A program made the translations under genes and the position numbers. A stretch of 39,118 nt of DNA from Acidobacteriota bacterium (lineage in GTDB: Bacteria > Acidobacteriota > Thermoanaerobaculia > Multivoradales > JAGPDF01), in the NCBI GenBank assembly GCA_017860005.1, contig JAFNAE010000007.1, positions 1 through 39,118 on the forward strand, read 5' to 3'. The first letter of the stretch is position 1, and the number at the start of each line of letters is the position of its first letter. The notes beneath the pieces are model-generated. The model searched no databases. It had not been told where the DNA came from and saw nothing but the letters and a program-made list of their open reading frames with translations. Below are positions 21,885-39,118 of this stretch, piece by piece.

Positions 21885-24065
21885 TCAGTCGTTGCCGAGC
21901 AGGGGCAGGTAGGCCTTCTCGCAGTACTCGGCGACCATACGGTCGCTCGAGAAGCGCGGCGTGACCGTGGCGATGGCCTCCTTCATCATCGCGATCCAGC
22001 GCCGGGGCAGCCCCTTCTCGTCGCGCTCGTAGAAGGCCGGGACGATCTGCTCCTCGAGCAGATGGTAGAGAGCGAGGGCGTCCTCGCGGTCCTGCGCAGC
22101 CTCGTCGGAGCCGCCGTCGCGCCCCGCGATGACCCAGCCGTTGCTGCCGTCGAAACCCTCCGGCCACCAGCCGTCCGCGATCGAGCAGTTGAGGGCGCCG
22201 TTCATCGCCGCCTTCATGCCGGAGGTGCCGGAGGCCTCCATCGGCCGCCGCGGCGTGTTGAGCCAGACGTCCACGCCCTGGACCAGCATGCGCCCGACCC
22301 GGATGTCGTAGTCCTCGACGAAGAAGACGCGGCCCTTGAGGGTCTCGCTCTGGCTGAGCTGGAAGAGGTGCTGGATCAGCTCCTGGCCGGCCTTGTCGGC
22401 CGGGTGGGCCTTGCCGGCGAGCACGATCTGCACCGGGCGCTCGCGGTTGCCGACCAGGTGGCGCAGGCGCAGCAGGTCGGCGAAGAGCAGGCCGGCGCGC
22501 TTGTAGGTCGCGAACCGGCGCGCGAAGCCGATGGTCAGCACCTGCGGGTCGAACATCTTCTCGATGCCGCGCAGCTCGTCCGGGGAGAGCCCGTGACGCG
22601 CGAACTGGTCGCGCAGCCGCGCGCGCAGGAAGCGGGCGAGCCGGCGCTTCTGCTCGAGGTGCACCTCCCACAGGTCCTGGTCGGAGTTGTCGAGGATGGC
22701 GGCGCGCCCGATCTCGCTGGTGATCACCTGGGGCCAGCGCTCGCCGAACCAGCGCGCGAACAGCTCCTGCATCTCGACGCCGAGCCAGGTGGAGGGGTGC
22801 ACGCCGTTGGTGATCGCGTGCAGGCGCTCCTCCTCGGGGGCGTCGGACGGGATCAGGTGGTCCCACATCGGACGCGCGACTTCGGCGTTGAGCCGCGACA
22901 CGCCGTTGAGGCGCGCGCTGGTGCGTACCGCCAGCGCGGTCATGTTGAAGGGCTGGCCGGGCTCGCCGTGGTCGATCTGGCCGAGCCGCAGCCACTCCTC
23001 GAGGTCGACCGGCGTCGCCGCGCACCAGGGCGCGAAGTCGCGCCGCGCGAGCGCGGCGTCGAAGACCTCGTTGCCCGCGGGCACCGGAGTGTGGGTGGTG
23101 AACACCGAGCTGCGCCGGATCTCGGCGAGCGCGGCGGCGAAGCTCTCGCCGGCCGCGAGCCGGCGGCGGGCGCGCTCGAACTGGAGCAGTGCGGAGTGCC
23201 CCTCGTTCATGTGCCAGACCCGGGGCTCGATGCCGAGCGCGGCGAGCGCCCGTGCCCCCCCGATGCCGAGCACGAGCTCCTGCGCGATGCGCATCTCGCG
23301 ACCCGGCGTGTAGAGCGCCCAGGTGATCGGACGGTCGGCCGAGTCGTTCTGGGGGACGTCGGTGTCGAGCAGGACGAGCGGCACGCGCCCGATCTGCGCG
23401 ACCCAGACCTGGGCGTGGATCTCGCGGCCGGGCAGCGGCACGGCGACGAAGACCCCGCGGCCGGTCGGGCCCGCCGCCGGCCGGACCGGCAGGCGCGTGA
23501 AGTCGTAGTCGGGGTAGATGTGCTGCTGGCGGCCGTCGGCCGAGACGGTCTGGCGGAAGTAGCCGTGGCGGTAGAGCAGCCCGACCGCGACCAGCGGGAC
23601 GCCCAGGTCGCTCGCGCTCTTCAGGTGGTCGCCGGCCAGGACGCCCAGGCCGCCCGAGTAGATGGCGAGCGCCTGGTGGAGGCCGTACTCCATGCAGAAG
23701 TAGGCGATCGGACCCTGCACGCCCGGGTGCGTGCGCGCGAACCAGGCGTCGCCCGCCTCGGCGAGGTAGCGGTCGAGGGCCTGGATCACCCGGTGGTAGA
23801 GGGTGCGGAACGCATCGTCCTCGAGCTTCTCCTGCCAGTGTGGCCGGTCGACGTTGATGAGCAGCTGGACCGGGTTGCGGTAGAGCGACCAGCTGCGGCT
23901 GTCGACGGCCGAGAACAGCTCCCGCGCGCGCGGCGACCAGGTCCACCAGAGGTTGTAGGCGAGATCGTAGAGCCGCTCGACCTCGTCCGGGAGCTCGATG
24001 TCGGCGACGTGCAGGCGCGGCAGGTCGTTCCAGGGTCGTTCCGTCACGGCGGCGGAGTCTCTCAT
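21885..24065 (-). CDS. glgP: Alpha-glucan family phosphorylase (GT35) with N-terminal DUF3417
   Basis: DEVERLYDLAYNLWWTWSPRARELF, IAYFCMEYGLHQALAIYSGGLGVLAGDHLKSASDLGVPLVAVGLLYRHGYF, VWHMNEGHSALLQFE, TTHTPVPAGNE, NTPRRPMEASGTSGMKAAMNGALNCSIADGWWPEGF. Confidence 0.95.
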   Translation of the reverse strand: MRDSAAVTERPWNDLPRLHVADIELPDEVERLYDLAYNLWWTWSPRARELFSAVDSRSWSLYRNPVQLLINVDRPHWQEKLEDDAFRTLYHRVIQALDRYLAEAGDAWFARTHPGVQGPIAYFCMEYGLHQALAIYSGGLGVLAGDHLKSASDLGVPLVAVGLLYRHGYFRQTVSADGRQQHIYPDYDFTRLPVRPAAGPTGRGVFVAVPLPGREIHAQVWVAQIGRVPLVLLDTDVPQNDSADRPITWALYTPGREMRIAQELVLGIGGARALAALGIEPRVWHMNEGHSALLQFERARRRLAAGESFAAALAEIRRSSVFTTHTPVPAGNEVFDAALARRDFAPWCAATPVDLEEWLRLGQIDHGEPGQPFNMTALAVRTSARLNGVSRLNAEVARPMWDHLIPSDAPEEERLHAITNGVHPSTWLGVEMQELFARWFGERWPQVITSEIGRAAILDNSDQDLWEVHLEQKRRLARFLRARLRDQFARHGLSPDELRGIEKMFDPQVLTIGFARRFATYKRAGLLFADLLRLRHLVGNRERPVQIVLAGKAHPADKAGQELIQHLFQLSQSETLKGRVFFVEDYDIRVGRMLVQGVDVWLNTPRRPMEASGTSGMKAAMNGALNCSIADGWWPEGFDGSNGWVIAGRDGGSDEAAQDREDALALYHLLEEQIVPAFYERDEKGLPRRWIAMMKEAIATVTPRFSSDRMVAEYCEKAYLPLLGND

Positions 24066-26218
24066 TCCTCCGGAGGCAGCGACCACTCCGGCTCGAGGTC
24101 GGGGAAGGGCAGGTCGCCCTCGGTCCAGTCCGGCACCTGGCGCGTGCGCGGCCCGAGCGCGACCAGCTCGCGCAGACGCTCGACGTGCCCGCGGAAGCGC
24201 TTCTCGGCGTAGTCGCGCCCGGTGCCCATGGTGACCAGGAACGGCCAGTCCGAGGCGGCGGCGAGCAGCAGCTGGTTGAGGATCGCGCGCCGCCACTTGC
24301 GCGGCCCGCCGCGGCGCACCGCGGCGAAGGCCTCGCGCTCGCATTCCCGGAGCTCGCGCCAGAACCAATCGGTCTCGGGGTTGACCCAGACGCGGTGGTC
24401 GCCGCCCGCGCCCCACGACCCCTCGCCGAAGAAGGCGCGCCGCAGCGCCGGTCCGTGGTCGAGCTCGCGCGCGGGCGTGGTCGCCTCGACCGGCGTCGCC
24501 GGCGCGGCGAGCTCGAGCACGCGCTCGAGCCAGGCCGGGCCTTCGAACCACCAGTGGCCGAACAGCTCGGCATCGAACGGGGCGCAGACCAGGCCGCCGT
24601 CCATCCCGTCCAGGCTCGAGACGAGCGCGACGAAGTGCTCGGCCTGCTCGCGCGCCCGGCGCAGCGCGTCGTCGGGCCAGTAGACGAGCTTGTCGATCAG
24701 GTCGGCCTCGGGGCCGGTGACGCGCCAGAAGCGCAGGCCCGAGGGCCAGTGTCGCTTGTGGAAGTCGAGGAAGGCGCCGTCGCCCGGGTAGCCGCCCTGG
24801 CGCGACCAGACCTGCGCCGCGGTGCGCGCGTCGCGCAGGAAAGCGGCGACCCCGCTGCGCCGGATCAGGAACGGCCGCGGGTGCGGGCCCCCGGGCTCGA
24901 CCACCTCCTCGGGCGGCAGGTCCGAGAGGTAGGGGAAGGCCGGGTCGCCCGAGCGCAGGAGGTGGGCGTCGAGCACGGTCCAGTCCAGGCCCTGCTCGGC
25001 GAGCAGCTCCTCGTTGCCCGGGCGGTCCGGCTCGGAGGCCCCGGTCGCCGGGTGGCGCCATTCGCCGCCGGGGCGGTAGGCGCACTCCGGCAGCCAGCAG
25101 CCCCTGGGATCGACGCCGAAGCGCTCGCGGTGGCTCTCGCGGCCGACGCGCAGGGCGAGGCGCGCGAGCTTCGACGTGTGCGCCAGCGGCAGGTAGACGT
25201 GGGTGGCGGCCGAGGTCGAGAGCTCGATCGCGCCGCGCGCCGAGAGATCGTCGAGGGCGCGGATCAGGTCCTTGTCGAAGCCCTCCCAGAGCGCGCGCAG
25301 GCGCTCGAACTCGCCGTGCCACCAGAGCGCGAGCGGGTGGCGCCGGCGCGCCTCCCAGGCTGCGGCGGTGCGCTCGGCCAGGTAGCGGTCGACGATGCCC
25401 GGGGTGCGGGCATCGGCGAACATGGCGGCCAGGATGGGTGTCACCGAGAGCGTCACGAAGTCCCGCCGCCCGCGCTCGGCCAGGCGCCGGAAGGCGTCGA
25501 GCAGGGGCAGGTAGCAGTGGACCACCGCCTCCGCCAGCCAGTCCTCGCCGTGCGGCCAGGTGCCGTGGCCGATCACCCACGGCAGGTGGGCGTGGAGGAC
25601 GAAGGCGAGCCGGCGCGGCGCGCCCGGGCGGCCCGGCTCGCGCAGGGGCGCGGGGACGACCGGCGGCTCGAGCGGCGGCCGCTGCTCGAACTCGAGCACG
25701 ATCTCGTCGCGCGAGAAGCCCTGCCCGCCGCCCTCGCCCCCCGCCGCCGCCGCCGCCGGCGCCTCGCCGGCGGCGGCCTGCGCCGGCTCCGGCTCGTCCG
25801 GCGCGCGCGGGGCCTCGGTGGGGGGCGCGTCGTTGGAAAGGCGTTCTGTTCGAGGCAGGGGCTGGCGGGGCACCCGTAGGTCGGGCGGCGCGCCGGTGGC
25901 GGGCGAATCCTCGGAAAGACGTTCTGTTGAAGGAAGGGGAGCGCGGGGCGGTGCCGGCGAGGCCGCGGCGTCGGTGGCGGTGGCCGCGTCGGTGGGTGTC
26001 GCTCCCGCGCGGCGCACCTTTCTCGGCGCGCGTGGCTTCGCTTCGGCGCTTCCGGGGCGCTTCGCGCCTCGCTTCGCCGCGGGCGCTCCGGCCGCCGCCC
26101 CCTTCTCTGGAGCCTTTCTCGATCTCGCGGCCGATTTTTCGGCTGCCGGCACGGAGTCCTTGGCGGGTGTCGTCGCCTTGCGGCGGCGCGGGCGGGGCGG
26201 CTCCTTGGTGTCGGTCAC
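24062..26218 (-). CDS. GH57 family glycoside hydrolase (1,4-alpha-glucan branching enzyme-like) with long disordered N-terminal tail
   Basis: LAFVLHAHLPWVIGHGTWPHGEDWLAEA, GCWLPECAYRPG, FDAELFGHWWFEGPAWLE; GTG start; 4-nt overlap with glgP. Confidence 0.9.
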   Translation of the reverse strand: MTDTKEPPRPRRRKATTPAKDSVPAAEKSAARSRKAPEKGAAAGAPAAKRGAKRPGSAEAKPRAPRKVRRAGATPTDAATATDAAASPAPPRAPLPSTERLSEDSPATGAPPDLRVPRQPLPRTERLSNDAPPTEAPRAPDEPEPAQAAAGEAPAAAAAGGEGGGQGFSRDEIVLEFEQRPPLEPPVVPAPLREPGRPGAPRRLAFVLHAHLPWVIGHGTWPHGEDWLAEAVVHCYLPLLDAFRRLAERGRRDFVTLSVTPILAAMFADARTPGIVDRYLAERTAAAWEARRRHPLALWWHGEFERLRALWEGFDKDLIRALDDLSARGAIELSTSAATHVYLPLAHTSKLARLALRVGRESHRERFGVDPRGCWLPECAYRPGGEWRHPATGASEPDRPGNEELLAEQGLDWTVLDAHLLRSGDPAFPYLSDLPPEEVVEPGGPHPRPFLIRRSGVAAFLRDARTAAQVWSRQGGYPGDGAFLDFHKRHWPSGLRFWRVTGPEADLIDKLVYWPDDALRRAREQAEHFVALVSSLDGMDGGLVCAPFDAELFGHWWFEGPAWLERVLELAAPATPVEATTPARELDHGPALRRAFFGEGSWGAGGDHRVWVNPETDWFWRELRECEREAFAAVRRGGPRKWRRAILNQLLLAAASDWPFLVTMGTGRDYAEKRFRGHVERLRELVALGPRTRQVPDWTEGDLPFPDLEPEWSLPPEE

Positions 26219-26221
26219 GTC

Positions 26222-26253
26222 GTCAGGTCTTCAGGTCTTCGGGTCGTCAGGTC
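26222..26253. repeat. Four tandem degenerate octamers (GTCAGGTC TTCAGGTC TTCGGGTC GTCAGGTC)
   Basis: Read directly; spans the GH57 start/DHH stop boundary. Confidence 0.85.
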
Positions 26254-27341
26254 GATTCGGCGGCCGGCTCGACCGGCTCGGCGACGCCGCCGGCTCCGAC
26301 CGGCGCCAGGACGAGGGGTTGCAGCCGCTCGGGGTTCTTCTTGAGGGCCGCCGCGAAGCGCTGGGCGAGGAAGCGCTCCAGCGCGCGTCCGCCGTCGCTC
26401 GCGGTGCGCGGAATCTCGACGAATCCGCCCGCCATCGTGCCGTGGCCGCCGCCCTTGCCGCGCTGGCCGATCAGCCGGCGCATCAGGTTGCCGGCGTCGG
26501 CGCGCGGGTTCGAGGTGCGGATCGAGAGGTAGACGCGGTCGCCGTGCACGCCCGTGCACATCGACCAGGTGCGGCCCTCCATGCGCAGCAGCAGGTCGGC
26601 GATCTCGGGCACGATGTCGGGCTGGTCGACGCGGCCGAGGCTGGAGATCACCAGGTTGGAGACGCCGGCCAGACCCTCGAGGGCGCGGTGGAGGTTGTGG
26701 AAGTAGTTGAGGGGGAGTGGCGCGGTCTGGATGCGCGCCAGCGTGCGCCGGTCGACCCGCGGCAGCAGCCGGTCGTACGCGGCGTGATCCGGACCCGCCG
26801 CCTCGCGTCCGAAGTCCTGGGTCTCCGAACGGATGGCGTAGACCAGGCCGGTGGCGAGCGGGCGCGTGATGTGCAGCCCGGCTTCCTCCAGGTACTCGAA
26901 GAGGATCGTCGCGGTGGCGCCGTACTCCGGGCGCACGTCGAAGAAGCGGGAGCGCTGGGTCGCCTTGCGCATCGGATGGTGGTCGAAGACCAGGTCTGGC
27001 ACGACTTCGCTCGGCAGCTGCGAGTTGCCGGTCCAGGGCTGGCAGTCGACCAGCACGAAGCGCTGGTAGTCGCGTCGCTTGAGGTGCCGCAGGTGGGAGA
27101 GCTTGAGCTTGAGGGCGCGCACCATCTCGCGGTTCTCGGCGCGGCCGATCATGCCGCCGTAGGCGATCGTCACCCGGCGGTGGAACCTCCGGCGCAGGAT
27201 CAGCCCCAGGGCCGCGGTCGATGCGAGGGCGTCGGGATCCGGGTTGTCGTGGGTGAGCAGCAGCCACCTGTCCCGATGCGGCGTGCTCTCGACCTGGGCG
27301 GCGAGAGCGGCGAGTCGCGCCCTCGTCAGATCGCTCGGCAT
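26247..27341 (-). CDS. DHH family phosphoesterase (NrnA-like)
   Basis: LLTHDNPDPDALASTAALGLIL, FVLVDCQPW, LVFDHHPM, GKGGGHGTMAGGFVEI. Confidence 0.9.
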   Translation of the reverse strand: MPSDLTRARLAALAAQVESTPHRDRWLLLTHDNPDPDALASTAALGLILRRRFHRRVTIAYGGMIGRAENREMVRALKLKLSHLRHLKRRDYQRFVLVDCQPWTGNSQLPSEVVPDLVFDHHPMRKATQRSRFFDVRPEYGATATILFEYLEEAGLHITRPLATGLVYAIRSETQDFGREAAGPDHAAYDRLLPRVDRRTLARIQTAPLPLNYFHNLHRALEGLAGVSNLVISSLGRVDQPDIVPEIADLLLRMEGRTWSMCTGVHGDRVYLSIRTSNPRADAGNLMRRLIGQRGKGGGHGTMAGGFVEIPRTASDGGRALERFLAQRFAAALKKNPERLQPLVLAPVGAGGVAEPVEPAAEST

Positions 27342-27424
27342 GGCGCCGTGGATCCTAGCATCGCGGTTCCGCCGGAGACGCCGTCTGCTAGACTGACACC
27401 TCGCGGTCGCTAGGGAACTTCGTC

Positions 27425-28645
27425 GTGCAGCGCGTGCTCTTCGTATCTCCCGGCTATCCCAGCGAGATGCCCCGTTTCGTGCGCGGCCTCGCCGAGATCG
27501 GCGCCGAGGTGCTCGGCGTCGGGGATCAGCCTCCGGCCCTGCTCGCCGAGGACGTCAGGCGGTCGCTCTCCGGCTACCTGCGGGTGCGCTCGCTGTGGGA
27601 GGAGGAGGCCGTCGTGCGCGCGGTCGCCACCTGGCTGGGCGACCGGTCCGTCGACCGCGTCGAGTGCCTCTGGGAGCCGGCGATGATCCTCGCCGCGCAG
27701 ATCCGCGAGGCGGTGGGCGCCCCCGGGCTCTCGGTCGAGCGCACGATCCCGTTCCGCAACAAGGAGCGCATGAAGCAGGCGCTCGACGCCGCGGGCATCC
27801 GCACGCCGCGGCACGCCGCCGCGCGCGGCGCGGCCGAGGTGCGCGAGGCGGCGGAGCGCATCGGGTTCCCGATCATCGTCAAGCCGATCGCCGGCGCGGG
27901 CTCCGCCGACACCTACCGGGTCGAGTCGATGCGCGAGCTCGAGACCGTGGAGCCCCGGGTCGAGCACCTCGACGAGGTGTCGGTGGAGGAGTTCGTCGAC
28001 GGCGAGGAGTACACCTTCGACACCATCGCGGTGGCGGGCGTGCCGGTCTTCCACAACGTCGCCTGGTACCGCCCGCGTCCTCTGGTCGCGCGCTCCAACG
28101 AGTGGATCAGCCCGCAGGTGGTCGCGCTGCGCGACCCCGACCAGGCCTGCCTCGCGGGCGGCGTCGCGATGGGGCGCGCGGTGCTCGCCGCACTCGGGTT
28201 CGAGAGCGGCTTCACGCACATGGAGTGGTACCTGAAGGCCGACGGCGAGGTGGTGTTCGGCGAGATCGGCGGCCGCCCGCCGGGGGCGCACCAGGTCGAC
28301 CAGATGAACTTCTCGTGCGACATCGACGTGTTCCGCGGCTGGGCGGAGGCGGTCTGCTTCGGGCGCTTCACGCACGAGGTGCACCGGCTGTTCAACGTCG
28401 CCAACGTCTACAAGCGCGCGCAGGGCCAGGGCTCGATCGAGCGGGTCGAGGGCCTCGAGCGGTTCCGCCAGCGGCACCGCGACGCGCTGGTGTGGGAGAA
28501 CCTGCTGCCGGTCGGCGCGCGCCGGCGCAACTGGCGCCAGACCCTGGTCTCCGACGGGTTCGTGGTGGTCCGTCACCCGGACCTCGAGGCGACGCTCGCC
28601 ATCGCGGACGAGTTCGGCAGCGAGGTCCGGCTCTTCGCCAATTGA
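27425..28645 (+). CDS. ATP-grasp domain protein 1
   Basis: GTG start; PFRNKERMKQALDAAGIRTPRH, FPIIVKPIAGAGSADTYRV, EVSVEEFVDGEEYTFDTI, HMEWYLKADGEVVFGEIGGRPPGAHQ. Confidence 0.9.
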   Translation: MQRVLFVSPGYPSEMPRFVRGLAEIGAEVLGVGDQPPALLAEDVRRSLSGYLRVRSLWEEEAVVRAVATWLGDRSVDRVECLWEPAMILAAQIREAVGAPGLSVERTIPFRNKERMKQALDAAGIRTPRHAAARGAAEVREAAERIGFPIIVKPIAGAGSADTYRVESMRELETVEPRVEHLDEVSVEEFVDGEEYTFDTIAVAGVPVFHNVAWYRPRPLVARSNEWISPQVVALRDPDQACLAGGVAMGRAVLAALGFESGFTHMEWYLKADGEVVFGEIGGRPPGAHQVDQMNFSCDIDVFRGWAEAVCFGRFTHEVHRLFNVANVYKRAQGQGSIERVEGLERFRQRHRDALVWENLLPVGARRRNWRQTLVSDGFVVVRHPDLEATLAIADEFGSEVRLFAN

Positions 28646-28651
28646 ATCGAG

Positions 28652-29736
28652 ATGCCCGCGGTCGTCTTCGTCGCCCCGTTCTTCCTCGACACCACGCTGC
28701 GCTTCGTGGACGGAGTCGCCTCGCTGCCCGGGGTGCGCCTGGGCCTGATCAGCCAGGATCCCCTCGAGCGACTGCCGGCTCGCCTCCGGCAGCGCCTCGC
28801 GGCCCACCGCCGGGTCGCCGACGGGCTCGATCCGCAGCAGATCGCGGATGCGGTGCGCGCGCTCGCCGTCGAGATCGGCGCGCCCGAACGCCTGCTGGGC
28901 GCGCTCGAGCAGCTCCAGGTACCGGCGAAGCCGCGGCGCTCGACTTCGCTTCGAGCGTCGGCTTCCCGCTGGTGGTCAAGCCGGCGGCCGGCGCCGGCGC
29001 CAAGGGCACCTACCGGGTCACCGGCGGCACCGAGCTGCGCGAGGCGCTCGCCGCCAGCCGGCCCGCGCCCGAGCGGCCCGCCGTGGTCGAGGAGTTCGTC
29101 ACCGGCGAGGAGTTCTCCTTCGACGCGGTCTCGATCCGCGGTCGCCTGGTCTGGCACTCGCTCTCGCACTATCTCCCGGCGCCGCTCCACGTCGTGGATC
29201 ATCCCTGGATCCAGTGGTGCGTGCTGATTCCACGCGAGATCGACCATCCCCGCTACGACGACGTGCGCGCGATCGCGGCGCGCGCCCTGACCGCGCTCGG
29301 CATGGACACCGGCTTGTCGCACATGGAGTGGTTCCGCCGGCGGGACGGCGGCGTGCTCGTCTCGGAGGTCGGCGCGCGGCCGCCCGGCGCGCAGATCACC
29401 TCCCTCATCTCCTGGGCGCACGACGTGGATTTCTACCGGGCCTGGGCCCGGCTGGTGGTGCTCGACCAGTTCGAGCCGCCGCAACGCCGGTTCGCGGCCG
29501 GGTGCGCCTACCTGCGGGGCCAGGGCCGGGGCCGGGTGCGCGCGGTGGTCGGCCTCGACCGCGTGCTCGCGCGGCTCGGGCCGATCGTGGTCGAGAGCCG
29601 GTTGCCGGCGATCGGCGCCACGCCGTCCTCGAGCTACGAGGGGGACGGTTTCGTGATCGTCCGCCATCCCGAGACGGCGGTGGTGGAGCGTGCCCTGAGA
29701 TCGTTGATCAGCGAGGTCCGGGTGGAGCTGGGATGA
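28652..29736 (+). pseudogene. ATP-grasp domain protein 2, apparently interrupted (about 47-50 codons missing plus change of frame near 28915-28945)
   Basis: Frame 1 from the ATG at 28652: MPAVVFVAPFFLDTTLRFVDGVASLPGVRLGLISQDP...RLLGALEQLQVP; continues in another frame as ALDFASSVGFPLVVKPAAGAGAKGTYRVTGG...VVEEFVTGEEFSFDAV...HMEWFRRRDGGVLVSEVGARPPGAQ...ISEVRVELG*. May be an assembly error. Confidence 0.7.
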
Positions 29737-30956
29737 CGCTCAACGTGCTCATGCTGTCGCCGGGGTACCCCGCCGAGATGCCGTACTTCACGCGCGGACT
29801 CGCCCGGGTGGGCGCGCGCGTGATCGGCCTCGGCGACCAGGCGAAGGAGGCGCTGCCGGAGATCGCGCGCTCGCATCTCGCCCACCACGTCCACGTCCAC
29901 TCGCTGTGGGACGAAGGATCGGTCGTGCGCGAGGTGCAACGATTCTCGCGCCAGGTCCGCATCGACCGCGTCGAGTGCCTGTGGGAACCGGGCATGCTGC
30001 TCGCCGCGCGCATCCGCGAGGCGCTGGGCCTGCCCGGCATGACCGTCGAGCAGACGCTGCCGTTCCGGGACAAGGAGGTCATGAAGCGTCGCCTCGACGA
30101 CGCCGGCATCCGCACGCCCCGTCACTACCGGGCGGTGACCGAGGACCAGGTGCGCGAAGCCGCCGAGCGGCTCGGCTACCCCCTGATCGTCAAGCCGATC
30201 GCCGGCGCCGGCTCGGCCGACACCCATCGCTGCGACGCGCGCGCCGAGCTGGAGCAGGCGCTCCGGGCGGTCAAGCACGTCGCCGAGGTCTCGGTCGAGG
30301 AGTTCGTCGAGGGCGAAGAGTTCACCTTCGACACGATCTGCGCGGGCGGGCGGATGTACTTCGAGAACGTCTGCTGGTACAAGCCGCGGCCCCTCCTGCA
30401 GCGCCAGCTCGAGTGGGTGAGCCCGCAGTCGTTCGCCCTGCGCGACCTCGAGCTGCCCGAGATCCAGGGCGGCCGCCGGCTGGGCCGCCAGGTGCTCGAG
30501 GTGCTCGGCTTCCAGACCGGCTTCACCCACATGGAGTGGTACCGGAAGGCCGACGGCGAGGTCGTCTTCGGCGAGATCGGCGGGCGCCCGCCGGGAGCTC
30601 GGCTGGTGGACATCATGAATTACTGCACCGACAACGACACCTATGTCGGCTGGGCCGAGGCGGCGGTGCGCGGGCACGTGGACCGGATCTTCGAGCGCAA
30701 GTGGAACGTCGCGGTGACCTTCAAGCGCGCGCAGGGCGAGGGCCGGATCAAGCGGATCGCCGGCCTCGACCGCCTGCGCGCCGAGCTCGGGCCCCTGCTG
30801 GTCGAGGAGAGCCTGACCCCGGTCGGCCATCCGCGCCGCAACTGGAAGACGACCCTGGTCGGCGACGGCTACCTGATCGTCCGCCACCCCGAGCTCAAGC
30901 CCCTCCTCGACATCGCCGACCGCATCGCCCGCGAAGTGCAGCTCTTCGCCGGCTGA
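29733..30956 (+). CDS. ATP-grasp domain protein 3
   Basis: MTLNVLMLSPGYPAEMPYFTRGLARVGARVIGLGDQ...PFRDKEVMKRRLDDAGIRTPRH...YPLIVKPIAGAGSADTHR...HMEWYRKADGEVVFGEIGGRPPGA; 4-nt overlap with ATP-grasp 2. Confidence 0.92.
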   Translation: MTLNVLMLSPGYPAEMPYFTRGLARVGARVIGLGDQAKEALPEIARSHLAHHVHVHSLWDEGSVVREVQRFSRQVRIDRVECLWEPGMLLAARIREALGLPGMTVEQTLPFRDKEVMKRRLDDAGIRTPRHYRAVTEDQVREAAERLGYPLIVKPIAGAGSADTHRCDARAELEQALRAVKHVAEVSVEEFVEGEEFTFDTICAGGRMYFENVCWYKPRPLLQRQLEWVSPQSFALRDLELPEIQGGRRLGRQVLEVLGFQTGFTHMEWYRKADGEVVFGEIGGRPPGARLVDIMNYCTDNDTYVGWAEAAVRGHVDRIFERKWNVAVTFKRAQGEGRIKRIAGLDRLRAELGPLLVEESLTPVGHPRRNWKTTLVGDGYLIVRHPELKPLLDIADRIAREVQLFAG

Positions 30957-30980: not shown

Positions 30981-32265
<1,285 letters not shown>

Positions 32266-32269
<4 letters not shown>

Positions 32270-36405: not shown

Positions 36406-38079
36406 ATGACCCCAGGCGCGACGATCCTCCTTCCCGCCCTCTTGATCGGAGCCGTCGCCACGGCCGCCGTGGCGCAGCCTCCGGCGCCTCCTCCGGAGCT
36501 TCCGACCCCGGTCTTCGGCGAGGTCGTCGAGGTGCGGGTCATCAACCTGGAGGTCGTCGTCACCGACCGCGACGGCCTGCCGGTGACCGGGCTCGCGGCC
36601 GGCGACTTCCGGCTCCTCGTCGATGGCGAGGAGGTCCCGGTCCGCTACTTCACGGAGGTGCGCGGCGGCCAGGCAATCGAGTCCCCGGCGGCCGAGCCGG
36701 GCGCCGATGTGGCGGCCGTCCCCGACATCGTCCCCGGCTCGCCCGTGGGGACCAGCTACCTCGTCTTCGTCGACGATTTCTTCTCGATCGCCCGTGACCG
36801 CGACCGGGTGCTGAGGTCGCTTTCCGCCGAGCTGTCTCGACTGGGGCCCGAGGACCGCATGGCGATCGTGGCCTTCGATGGCATCGAGCTCGAGATGATC
36901 TCGACCTGGTCGAGCTCTGTGTCCGAGCTCGAGCGCGCCTTCCAGAAGGCGGTCAAGAGGCCCGCGCACGGCTTGCGCAGGGAATCGGAGAGGAGGAGCT
37001 TCCTCTCCGGCTCCCGCCGTATGGGCCAGACCGGGATCGGTGGGATGCCGAATCTGCCGGGCAACCGGCTCGAGATGGACGAGCGGTTCTACGCCGAGCT
37101 GCTCGAAGACCAGGTGAAGAGCACAGTCTCAGCCGCCGCCGCCGCGCTGCGGGGTTTCGCGAATCCGCCCGGGCGCAAGGTCATGCTGATGCTTTCCGGT
37201 GGCTGGCCCTACGACATCCCGGAGTACGTCACCCGGCAGTTCGGCCGCGCGATCACCGAGCCCCAGATCGAGAGCGGCGACCGCCTCTTCGCGCCGGTGG
37301 TGGAGACCGCCAACCGGCTCGGCTACACGCTCTACGCGGTCGACGTGCCCGGCCTCGCCACTGACGACGTCATCGACGCCAGCGAATTCGGGCGCACGGT
37401 GGTGAACGAGCAGTTCGCGAACTTCATACGGGAGAACAATATCCAGTACGGGCTCGAGTTCGTCTCGCAACAGACCGGCGGACGTGCGTTCGTCAACGCC
37501 GGACGCACCGCGGTGCTGGAGAACGCGGAGGCCGACACGCGTTCTTACTACTGGCTGGGCTTCGTGCCCGCCTGGCAGGGCGACGACCGCTCGCATCGGG
37601 TCGAGGCAGAGGTCCGGCGCGAAGGGCTCCGCGTGCGCAACAGATCCGGGTACCTCGACTCTTCGCGCAGCCGCGAGGTCTCGATGGCGGTCGAGAGCGC
37701 CTTGATGTTCGGCGGCGGGCCCAATCTGCGGCCGCTCGCCGCGTTGAAGGTCTCCACGCCCACCAAGTCCTCGGTCGGCAACATGCGCGTCAATGTGGAG
37801 CTGGCGGTGCCGGTCGCCGAGCTCACGATGCTGCCGGTCGGACGCCAGAGAGTGGCCGACCTCGAGTTGCGGGTCGCGGCCATCGACGAGCGCGGCGGGC
37901 GCAACGAGATCCCGGTGCTGCCGGTGCGCCTCGCAGTCGAGTCCGACCCCGCCCCGGGCCAGCTCGCCTACTACCGGACGACGCTCGAGCTGCGCCGGAT
38001 TCGCAACCGCGTGGCCGTGGCGTTGTACGATCCGGCTGCGGGCACGATCTGGTCGACCACGGTCGAGGTCGAGCCCTGA
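36406..38079 (+). CDS. VWFA-related (acidobacterial-type) secreted protein 1
   Basis: Signal peptide; VVEVRVINLEVVVTDRDGLPVTGLAAGDFRLLVDGEEVPV; VWA-like region YLVFVDDFFSIARDRDRVLRSL; SD AAAGGAG upstream. Confidence 0.85.
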   Translation: MTPGATILLPALLIGAVATAAVAQPPAPPPELPTPVFGEVVEVRVINLEVVVTDRDGLPVTGLAAGDFRLLVDGEEVPVRYFTEVRGGQAIESPAAEPGADVAAVPDIVPGSPVGTSYLVFVDDFFSIARDRDRVLRSLSAELSRLGPEDRMAIVAFDGIELEMISTWSSSVSELERAFQKAVKRPAHGLRRESERRSFLSGSRRMGQTGIGGMPNLPGNRLEMDERFYAELLEDQVKSTVSAAAAALRGFANPPGRKVMLMLSGGWPYDIPEYVTRQFGRAITEPQIESGDRLFAPVVETANRLGYTLYAVDVPGLATDDVIDASEFGRTVVNEQFANFIRENNIQYGLEFVSQQTGGRAFVNAGRTAVLENAEADTRSYYWLGFVPAWQGDDRSHRVEAEVRREGLRVRNRSGYLDSSRSREVSMAVESALMFGGGPNLRPLAALKVSTPTKSSVGNMRVNVELAVPVAELTMLPVGRQRVADLELRVAAIDERGGRNEIPVLPVRLAVESDPAPGQLAYYRTTLELRRIRNRVAVALYDPAAGTIWSTTVEVEP

Positions 38080-38102: not shown

Positions 38103-39118
38103 ATGAGCCGCCTGCCCCTTCACGCCCTGCTGGCGCTCGCGCTCGCCGCGAGCGCCGCCCCGGTCCGTTCGCAGGGCGCTGCCGAGCCCCCGCCCCCCGC
38201 GCCGCCTCCGGCGGCGGACTCCGCTCAGAAGCCTGCCTCCGAGGTGCCGGTCGAGCAGTTCTTCGAGAGCATCGACGTCAACGTGGTCAACGTGGACGTC
38301 TACGTCACGGACAGGAAGGGCAACCGGATACGCGGCCTGGGCAAGGACGACTTCGAGCTGCTCGAAGACGACAAGCCGATGACGATCACCAACTTCTACG
38401 CGGTGGAGGAGGGCGGGCCGGTGCGCAGCGAGCCCGCGCCCGCGGCGGCGCCCGCGCCGCCGCCCGCGGCGCCGCCGGCGGCCGCCGCTCCGGCTGCGGA
38501 GATCCCGGAGGACCAGCGGCTCCACCTGGTGGTCTACATCGACAACTGGAACATCAAGCCCTTCAACCGGAACCGCGTCTTCACCGGGATCCGCGAGATG
38601 CTGCGCTCGCGCCTGACGCGGGGCGACCGCGTCATGCTCATGACCTACGACCGGGAGCCCCACGTGCGGCGGCCCTTCACATCGGATCCGGTGACCATCG
38701 CCTCCGCGCTGTTCGAGATCGAGCGCCTCTCGGCGCAGGGTGTCCAGCAGGAGTCCGAGCGGCGGGAGGCACTGAGCGACATCGAAGCGGCCCGCGACGA
38801 GACCTCGGCGCTGATCCGCGCCCGCAGCTACGCCGACGCGGTCTACAACGACCTCTCGTTCGCGCTCGACTCGCTCAAGAACACGGTCTCCTCGCTGGCC
38901 GGGCTGCCCGGGCGCAAGGCGATCCTGTACGTCTCGGACGGCCTGCCCATGGTGGCCGGCGAGGACGCCTTCCATGCCGTGCAGGAGAAGTTCTCTTCGG
39001 CGACCGGCTCGGTGCTCGAGGCGCGCAACTACGACGCCTCGCGCCGCTACAAGGAGCTGGTCGCCTCGGCCAACGCCAACCGCATCACCTTCTACACCCT
39101 CGATGCGGCCGGGTTGCG
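38103..39118 (+). CDS. VWFA-related secreted protein 2 (truncated by the window end)
   Basis: Not in the ORF track because no stop is present. MSRLPLHALLALALAASAAPVRSQGAAEPPPPAPP...ESIDVNVVNVDVYVTDRKGNRIRGLGKDDFELLEDDKPMTITNFYAVE...LHLVVYIDNWNIKPFNRNRVFTGIREML...LPGRKAILYVSDGLPM; SD GAGGAGG upstream. Confidence 0.88.
   Translation, partial: MSRLPLHALLALALAASAAPVRSQGAAEPPPPAPPPAADSAQKPASEVPVEQFFESIDVNVVNVDVYVTDRKGNRIRGLGKDDFELLEDDKPMTITNFYAVEEGGPVRSEPAPAAAPAPPPAAPPAAAAPAAEIPEDQRLHLVVYIDNWNIKPFNRNRVFTGIREMLRSRLTRGDRVMLMTYDREPHVRRPFTSDPVTIASALFEIERLSAQGVQQESERREALSDIEAARDETSALIRARSYADAVYNDLSFALDSLKNTVSSLAGLPGRKAILYVSDGLPMVAGEDAFHAVQEKFSSATGSVLEARNYDASRRYKELVASANANRITFYTLDAAGL

Follow-up and report, generated by a model that had tools for sequence, protein, structure and literature searches.

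The closest described relatives of the proteins studied here are the L-amino-acid ligases RizA, BL00235 and BacD (YwfE), which share with them the whole-chain fold, the catalytic Lys/Glu/Arg set and a Gly or Ala in the metal motif, at just about 17–20% sequence identity. The cyanophycin system (CphA1 and CphB) has a logic in common with the present locus, in which an ATP-grasp ligase is combined with an S51 peptidase of the cyanophycinase fold. The amidoligase neighborhood survey of Iyer et al. in 2009 reportedly covered ATP-grasp and GCS2 peptide ligases that are linked to peptidases. Bacterial glycogen (glg) clusters consist of glgA, glgC, glgB, glgP and glgX, and ligase, peptidase and esterase genes were not among the members of described clusters in the literature that we searched. 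Unlike RizA, BL00235 and BacD/YwfE, the ligases characterized in this study occur as several paralogs per cassette, together with a peptidase and esterases, and lie near glycogen genes; the neighbors are the canonical glgA/glgC, phosphorylase and branching enzyme genes of glg clusters. We found no description of this cassette in a partial literature search, which did not cover the main amidoligase survey. The separate enzymes have known folds, and their combination and the link to glycogen appear to be new.

The window, i.e., the whole stretch of 39,118 nucleotides that was analyzed, was placed in the class Thermoanaerobaculia of the Acidobacteriota by named relatives. Its three tandem ATP-grasp genes, designated copies 1–3 (A, B and C), and their neighbors are as follows.

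21885–24065, minus strand: alpha-glucan (glycogen) phosphorylase with DUF3417
24062–25873, minus strand: GH57 alpha-1,4-glucan branching enzyme (glycogen)
26247–27341, minus strand: DHH/DHHA1 phosphoesterase, divergent neighbor of copy 1
27342–27424: 83-bp intergenic region that separates copy 1 from the divergent DHH gene, candidate for a shared promoter
27425–28645, plus strand: copy 1 (A), predicted L-amino-acid-ligase-type ATP-grasp enzyme, C-type, 406 aa, intact
28652–29736, plus strand: copy 2 (B), divergent gene predicted to be of the same L-amino-acid-ligase-type ATP-grasp class, broken in this assembly
29733–30956, plus strand: copy 3 (C), predicted L-amino-acid-ligase-type ATP-grasp enzyme, 407 aa, intact
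30981–32269, minus strand: FAD-binding oxidase, GlcD-like, broken in this assembly

The three ATP-grasp genes are co-directional, with a 6-bp gap between copies 1 and 2, and the start of copy 3 overlaps the stop of copy 2 (29736) by 4 nt (ATGA); this layout and the coordinates are just as given in an earlier note on this DNA. That note had also described copies 1 and 3 as close paralogs and copy 2 as divergent, which agrees with an identity of 58% between the former two and of 37% for copy 2 over its surviving part. The motifs that it had listed (GAGSADT, VEEFVxGEE, HMEW and EIGG/EVGA-RPPGA) were confirmed and are conserved among relatives. It had overlooked the minus-strand glycogen genes (21885–25873), which lie upstream of copy 1 with one DHH gene between.

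All three copies matched ATP-grasp families of Pfam above the curated cut-off, and the LAL_C2 C-terminal domain (PF18603) scored 12–17 bits against a cut-off of 29.4. The best matches among solved structures in a profile search were L-amino-acid ligases, namely RizA (4wd3, E = 1e-36), BL00235 (3vot) and BacD. An AlphaFold model of copy 3 (pLDDT 94) displayed the three-domain ATP-grasp fold of the RizA/BacD type, and its best matches were RizA, BL00235 and BacD over the full chain (E = 1.5e-29 and TM 0.79 against RizA 4wd3). In 37 aligned intact A, B, C and D sequences, where D is a paralog about 33% identical to C, Lys114, Lys154, Glu268, Glu281 and Arg285 are invariant; this active-site set corresponds to two ATP-binding Lys, two metal-binding Glu and the Arg that follows the metal motif. 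The Asn of the metal motif, whose replacement by Gly or Ala had been pointed out in the first reading of the sequence, is likewise missing from RizA (GEIAMRIGG) and BL00235 (EVGARIGG) in the alignment, and its replacement is therefore a trait of this branch. Taken together, structure prediction and the searches support the assignment of the copies as predicted L-amino-acid-ligase-type ATP-grasp enzymes, which bears out the ligase identity that had been suggested for them.

More specific assignments were rejected. None of the NCBIfam models shown reached its cut-off for the three copies: BacD (alanine-anticapsin ligase) and dapdiamide synthase DdaF gave 16–33 bits against cut-offs of 840–850, and D-Ala-D-Ala ligase, PurT and PurK gave at most 42 bits against cut-offs of at least 243. 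The intact copies scored 36–38 bits with cyanophycin synthetase (cut-off 850), and they are 407-aa proteins, not a full-length CphA with its Mur-ligase part. No close homologs of the three copies with a known pathway turned up. A further paralog group of the same ATP-grasp family, E, is represented elsewhere in the same genome (L046, 6864–8150; G000:C237), away from the cassette and beside a BlaR1-type M56 peptidase gene.

Copy 2 is frameshifted in this assembly, so that just two of the three ligase genes are intact here. Its residues 1–91 are encoded in one frame (28652–28924) and residues 130–406 in another (from 28903), with the frameshift near 28924, and a DNA alignment with four relatives showed the window gene to be 136 nt shorter. 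The missing 136 nt encode an invariant N-F-R-D-K-x-R-M-K motif in the relatives, and an ATP-binding motif with one Lys is consequently gone from the window copy. Given this out-of-frame loss of an ATP-binding motif, copy 2 might be a genuine pseudogene in the window strain, with the pathway decaying there. We regard this as possible but doubtful, because copy 2 is intact in all five related genomes examined from the window's genus and its sister genus (g1 and g2), and because the unrelated FAD-oxidase gene, 2.1 kb from the copy 2 gap, has an out-of-frame gap of ~140 nt near 31075 when compared with same-genus relatives. Two gaps of similar size, close together and in genes that are intact in relatives, argue that the break in copy 2 is probably an assembly error or collapse rather than gene decay, and the gap in the FAD-oxidase gene likely stems from the same assembly problem.

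In the 84,980 genomes that we scanned, C had at least 543 relatives, and the 80 best of these were examined as named loci. These 80 are distributed over Acidobacteriota, Planctomycetota, Actinomycetota, Dormibacterota, Gemmatimonadota, Eisenbacteria, Myxococcota and Pseudomonadota. The A-B-C triplet was found in each of the other three congeneric genomes and in both genomes of the sister genus, and it was absent from a third genus of the same family. Elsewhere in the order and in other phyla, the unit is a B-C doublet, composed of a copy 2-like and a copy 3-like gene. Copy 3 is the most widely conserved member, and copy 1 is restricted to one family. Hence, these genes are conserved past this genome, as a triplet in the genus and sister genus and as a group across many phyla, but the idea that the tandem triplet itself forms the functional cassette is not supported: the conserved unit is B-C with D, a fourth ATP-grasp gene (c4), an S51 peptidase gene and the genes for two hydrolases. 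In a few genomes (L035, 12697–13914; L103), C is convergent with B instead of lying 3' of it, and the glgA-glgC pair still adjoins B.

A tree of C-type proteins separated copy 1 from copy 3 and joined the former (SH-aLRT 98) to sequences from Nannocystis, other Myxococcota and Steroidobacteraceae. This topology does not favor copy 1 as a simple tandem duplicate of copy 3. Because the tree sets the two apart, copy 1 is probably a second C-type gene that was laterally acquired or anciently split.

The recurring neighbors of C are B, D, c4, the S51 peptidase, an enterochelin-esterase-like hydrolase (hereafter, esterase) and a second esterase-type hydrolase (hereafter, hydrolase). Genes were called with a simple coding-potential script of our own and then clustered, a procedure by which small genes may be missed. 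Near C in the 80 loci (the best of at least 543, from eight phyla), we counted at least 61 B-type, at least 38 D, at least 36 c4, at least 36 S51, at least 37 esterase and at least 34 hydrolase genes, all of which are lower bounds because many loci are on short metagenome contigs. All cassette genes, along with glgA and glgC, fall within about 11 kb in one genome (G017; L035, 2915–13914). The genome from which the window comes has D, S51, esterase and c4 grouped on another contig (L045), with a glucokinase gene and a GlgX-like gene. In a set of 149 genomes from the class, 37 carry C together with S51, 109 carry neither and 3 carry one of the two (Fisher 2e-31, a value that ignores shared ancestry and is thus indicative only), and the esterase and c4 exhibited almost the same co-occurrence with C. 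Two genomes (G051 and G056) have B-C without the S51 module. Conversely, G007 has S51, esterase and c4 without B, C and D, and the cassette therefore consists of two separable modules. In this last genome, which belongs to the same family, the GlgX-like, S51, esterase and c4 genes stand in a row (L145, G007:C234).

The S51 protein matched PF03575 above the cut-off, and its fold is that of cyanophycinase and dipeptidase E, as judged by matches to 3en0 and dipeptidase E. Its W-S-x-G motif, the Ser nucleophile elbow, is invariant, and the conserved His is missing from some Dormibacterota sequences. The resemblance to the cyanophycin system has limits: the cassette has no Mur-ligase-type fusion and no protein of CphA length, and its S51 protein is just about 11–13% identical to cyanophycinase. 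Unlike cyanophycinase, the S51 protein also has a long helical insertion, at about residues 71–168 of the protein encoded in the window's genome (L045, 4002–4928, minus strand). A GCS2-CBS protein was considered as a core member and rejected for Thermoanaerobaculia, where it is present in many cassette-less genomes and is not adjacent to the cassette. It lies inside the cassette region in Planctomycetota, Eisenbacteria and Actinomycetota, and GCS2-type ligases are recurring cassette neighbors in Actinomycetota and Dormibacterota.

Of the five related genomes of g1 and g2, four have the phosphorylase and GH57 branching enzyme genes upstream, and the contig of the fifth (G001) is too short to show them. 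The DHH gene is also the divergent neighbor in four of the five examined, with no call in G002. For much of the remainder of the order, glgC and glgA take the divergent position. Of 36 genomes of the order, 29 have glgA no more than 10 kb away from a cassette gene, where random placement would give about 0.5. The glgA gene is present in every C-bearing genome of the class (39/39), and many GlgA-positive genomes are without the cassette. Family f4 has no glgA match among the genomes listed, and no C match is listed there either. As for other phyla, glgA/glgC in Planctomycetota, glgB and glgP in Gemmatimonadota and glgB in Eisenbacteria are near the cassette. No glycogen gene was recognized within about 10 kb of the cassette in Actinomycetota, Dormibacterota and Nannocystis, and the tie to glycogen is therefore not universal. 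Among the genomes listed for family f10, G051 and G056 (L148 and L149) are the sole ones with B-C and also the sole ones to carry an additional, divergent glgA (about 40% identical). In neither genome does this additional glgA adjoin B-C, and no further cassette gene was recognized next to it or next to B-C. Thermoanaerobaculaceae cells in activated sludge store glycogen, as observed by FISH-Raman (PMC8100337); this finding concerns glycogen storage in members of the class and does not show that the cassette matters for storage.

That BacD and dipeptide ligases are among the closest solved relatives would suit a natural-product pathway, for example one leading to a bacilysin-like dipeptide, to which the glycogen neighbors would be incidental. 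We consider such a pathway improbable, given that the glycogen linkage is far above chance and that the genes conserved alongside the cassette do not include a transporter, a resistance gene or a tailoring enzyme. Moreover, the cassette is retained vertically and almost universally in several families, including in a 2.0-Mb genome (G059), unlike a sporadic cluster.

The presence of several ligases together with a cyanophycinase-fold peptidase and esterases suggests that a peptide or amide is built and recycled, and the linkage of the cassette to glycogen genes suggests that this process is managed jointly with carbon storage. Our preferred interpretation, in which we place moderate confidence, is that the cassette encodes a conserved pathway of the cytosol in which small carboxylates are ligated to amines (amino acids being the likeliest substrates) and which is run together with glycogen metabolism. 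It builds on the observed fold, catalytic residues, gene linkage and co-occurrence; the type of reaction would follow from the enzyme family and the tie to carbon storage from gene order, and the product would be a peptide. Each intact ligase would use ATP to convert a carboxylate to an acyl phosphate, which a second substrate would attack to form an amide or possibly an ester. B, C, D and c4, acting in sequence or on different partners, would thereby produce a short peptide or amide, whose trimming or recycling would fall to the S51 peptidase and the pair of esterase-type hydrolases. Cells may make or use this compound while they are storing or mobilizing carbon. Copy 1 would be an extra C-type ligase, peculiar to this family and inserted before B-C.

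A specific version of this explanation assumes that the product is an osmolyte or desiccation-protectant peptide, co-regulated with glycogen as the carbon reserve. Many hosts belong to soil or dryland lineages (Geodermatophilus, Dormibacterota and Gemmatimonadota), and the logic of a ligase with a peptidase resembles that of known peptide osmolytes. However, marine and wastewater lineages carry the cassette too and an osmotic regulator was not identified, and we judge this version to be unlikely.

The esterase bears on a different reading, in which glycogen itself is the target that the cassette modifies. The catalytic domain of this enzyme is similar to carbohydrate esterases, and its N-terminal domain is of the enterochelin-esterase type, with weak matches to CBM20 in 4 and to CBM48 in 2 of 15 members. 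These features, along with the direct linkage to glgA, glgC, glgP, glgB and the GH57 branching enzyme gene, would be consistent with ligases that make an aminoacyl or peptidyl group for an alpha-glucan (or its primer or anchor) and with esterases and S51 that remove it. However, the CBM matches are far below the cut-offs and the N-terminal domain alone had no match in the PDB, and a starch-binding domain is accordingly not established. Actinomycetota, furthermore, have the cassette without glycogen genes nearby. Overall, glycogen modification seems rather improbable as the role of the cassette, and we know of no amino-acid or peptide modification of glycogen of this sort. A very doubtful extension is that amino acids or a short peptide form a widespread covalent tag on glycogen or its primer that controls storage or mobilization; the ATP-grasp ligases would add this tag, and the S51 peptidase with the esterases would take it off. 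Gene order and the weak carbohydrate-binding-domain matches in the esterase are what hint at it.

Returning to the amino-acid-ligation pathway, four ATP-grasp ligases, a cyanophycinase-fold peptidase and two hydrolases are inherited en bloc across many phyla and are linked to glycogen genes in several of them. If confirmed, the pathway would tie non-ribosomal amino-acid ligation to carbon storage and would add an uncharacterized metabolite or polymer modification to glycogen biology. It would also be open to genetic tests in Geodermatophilus or Pseudonocardia, which are culturable.

The window additionally contains a pair of adjacent paralogous genes on the plus strand (36406–38079 and 38103–39116). 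The former encodes a protein of 557 aa with no match in Pfam. The latter, which runs off the window end, is about 27–30% alike to it.
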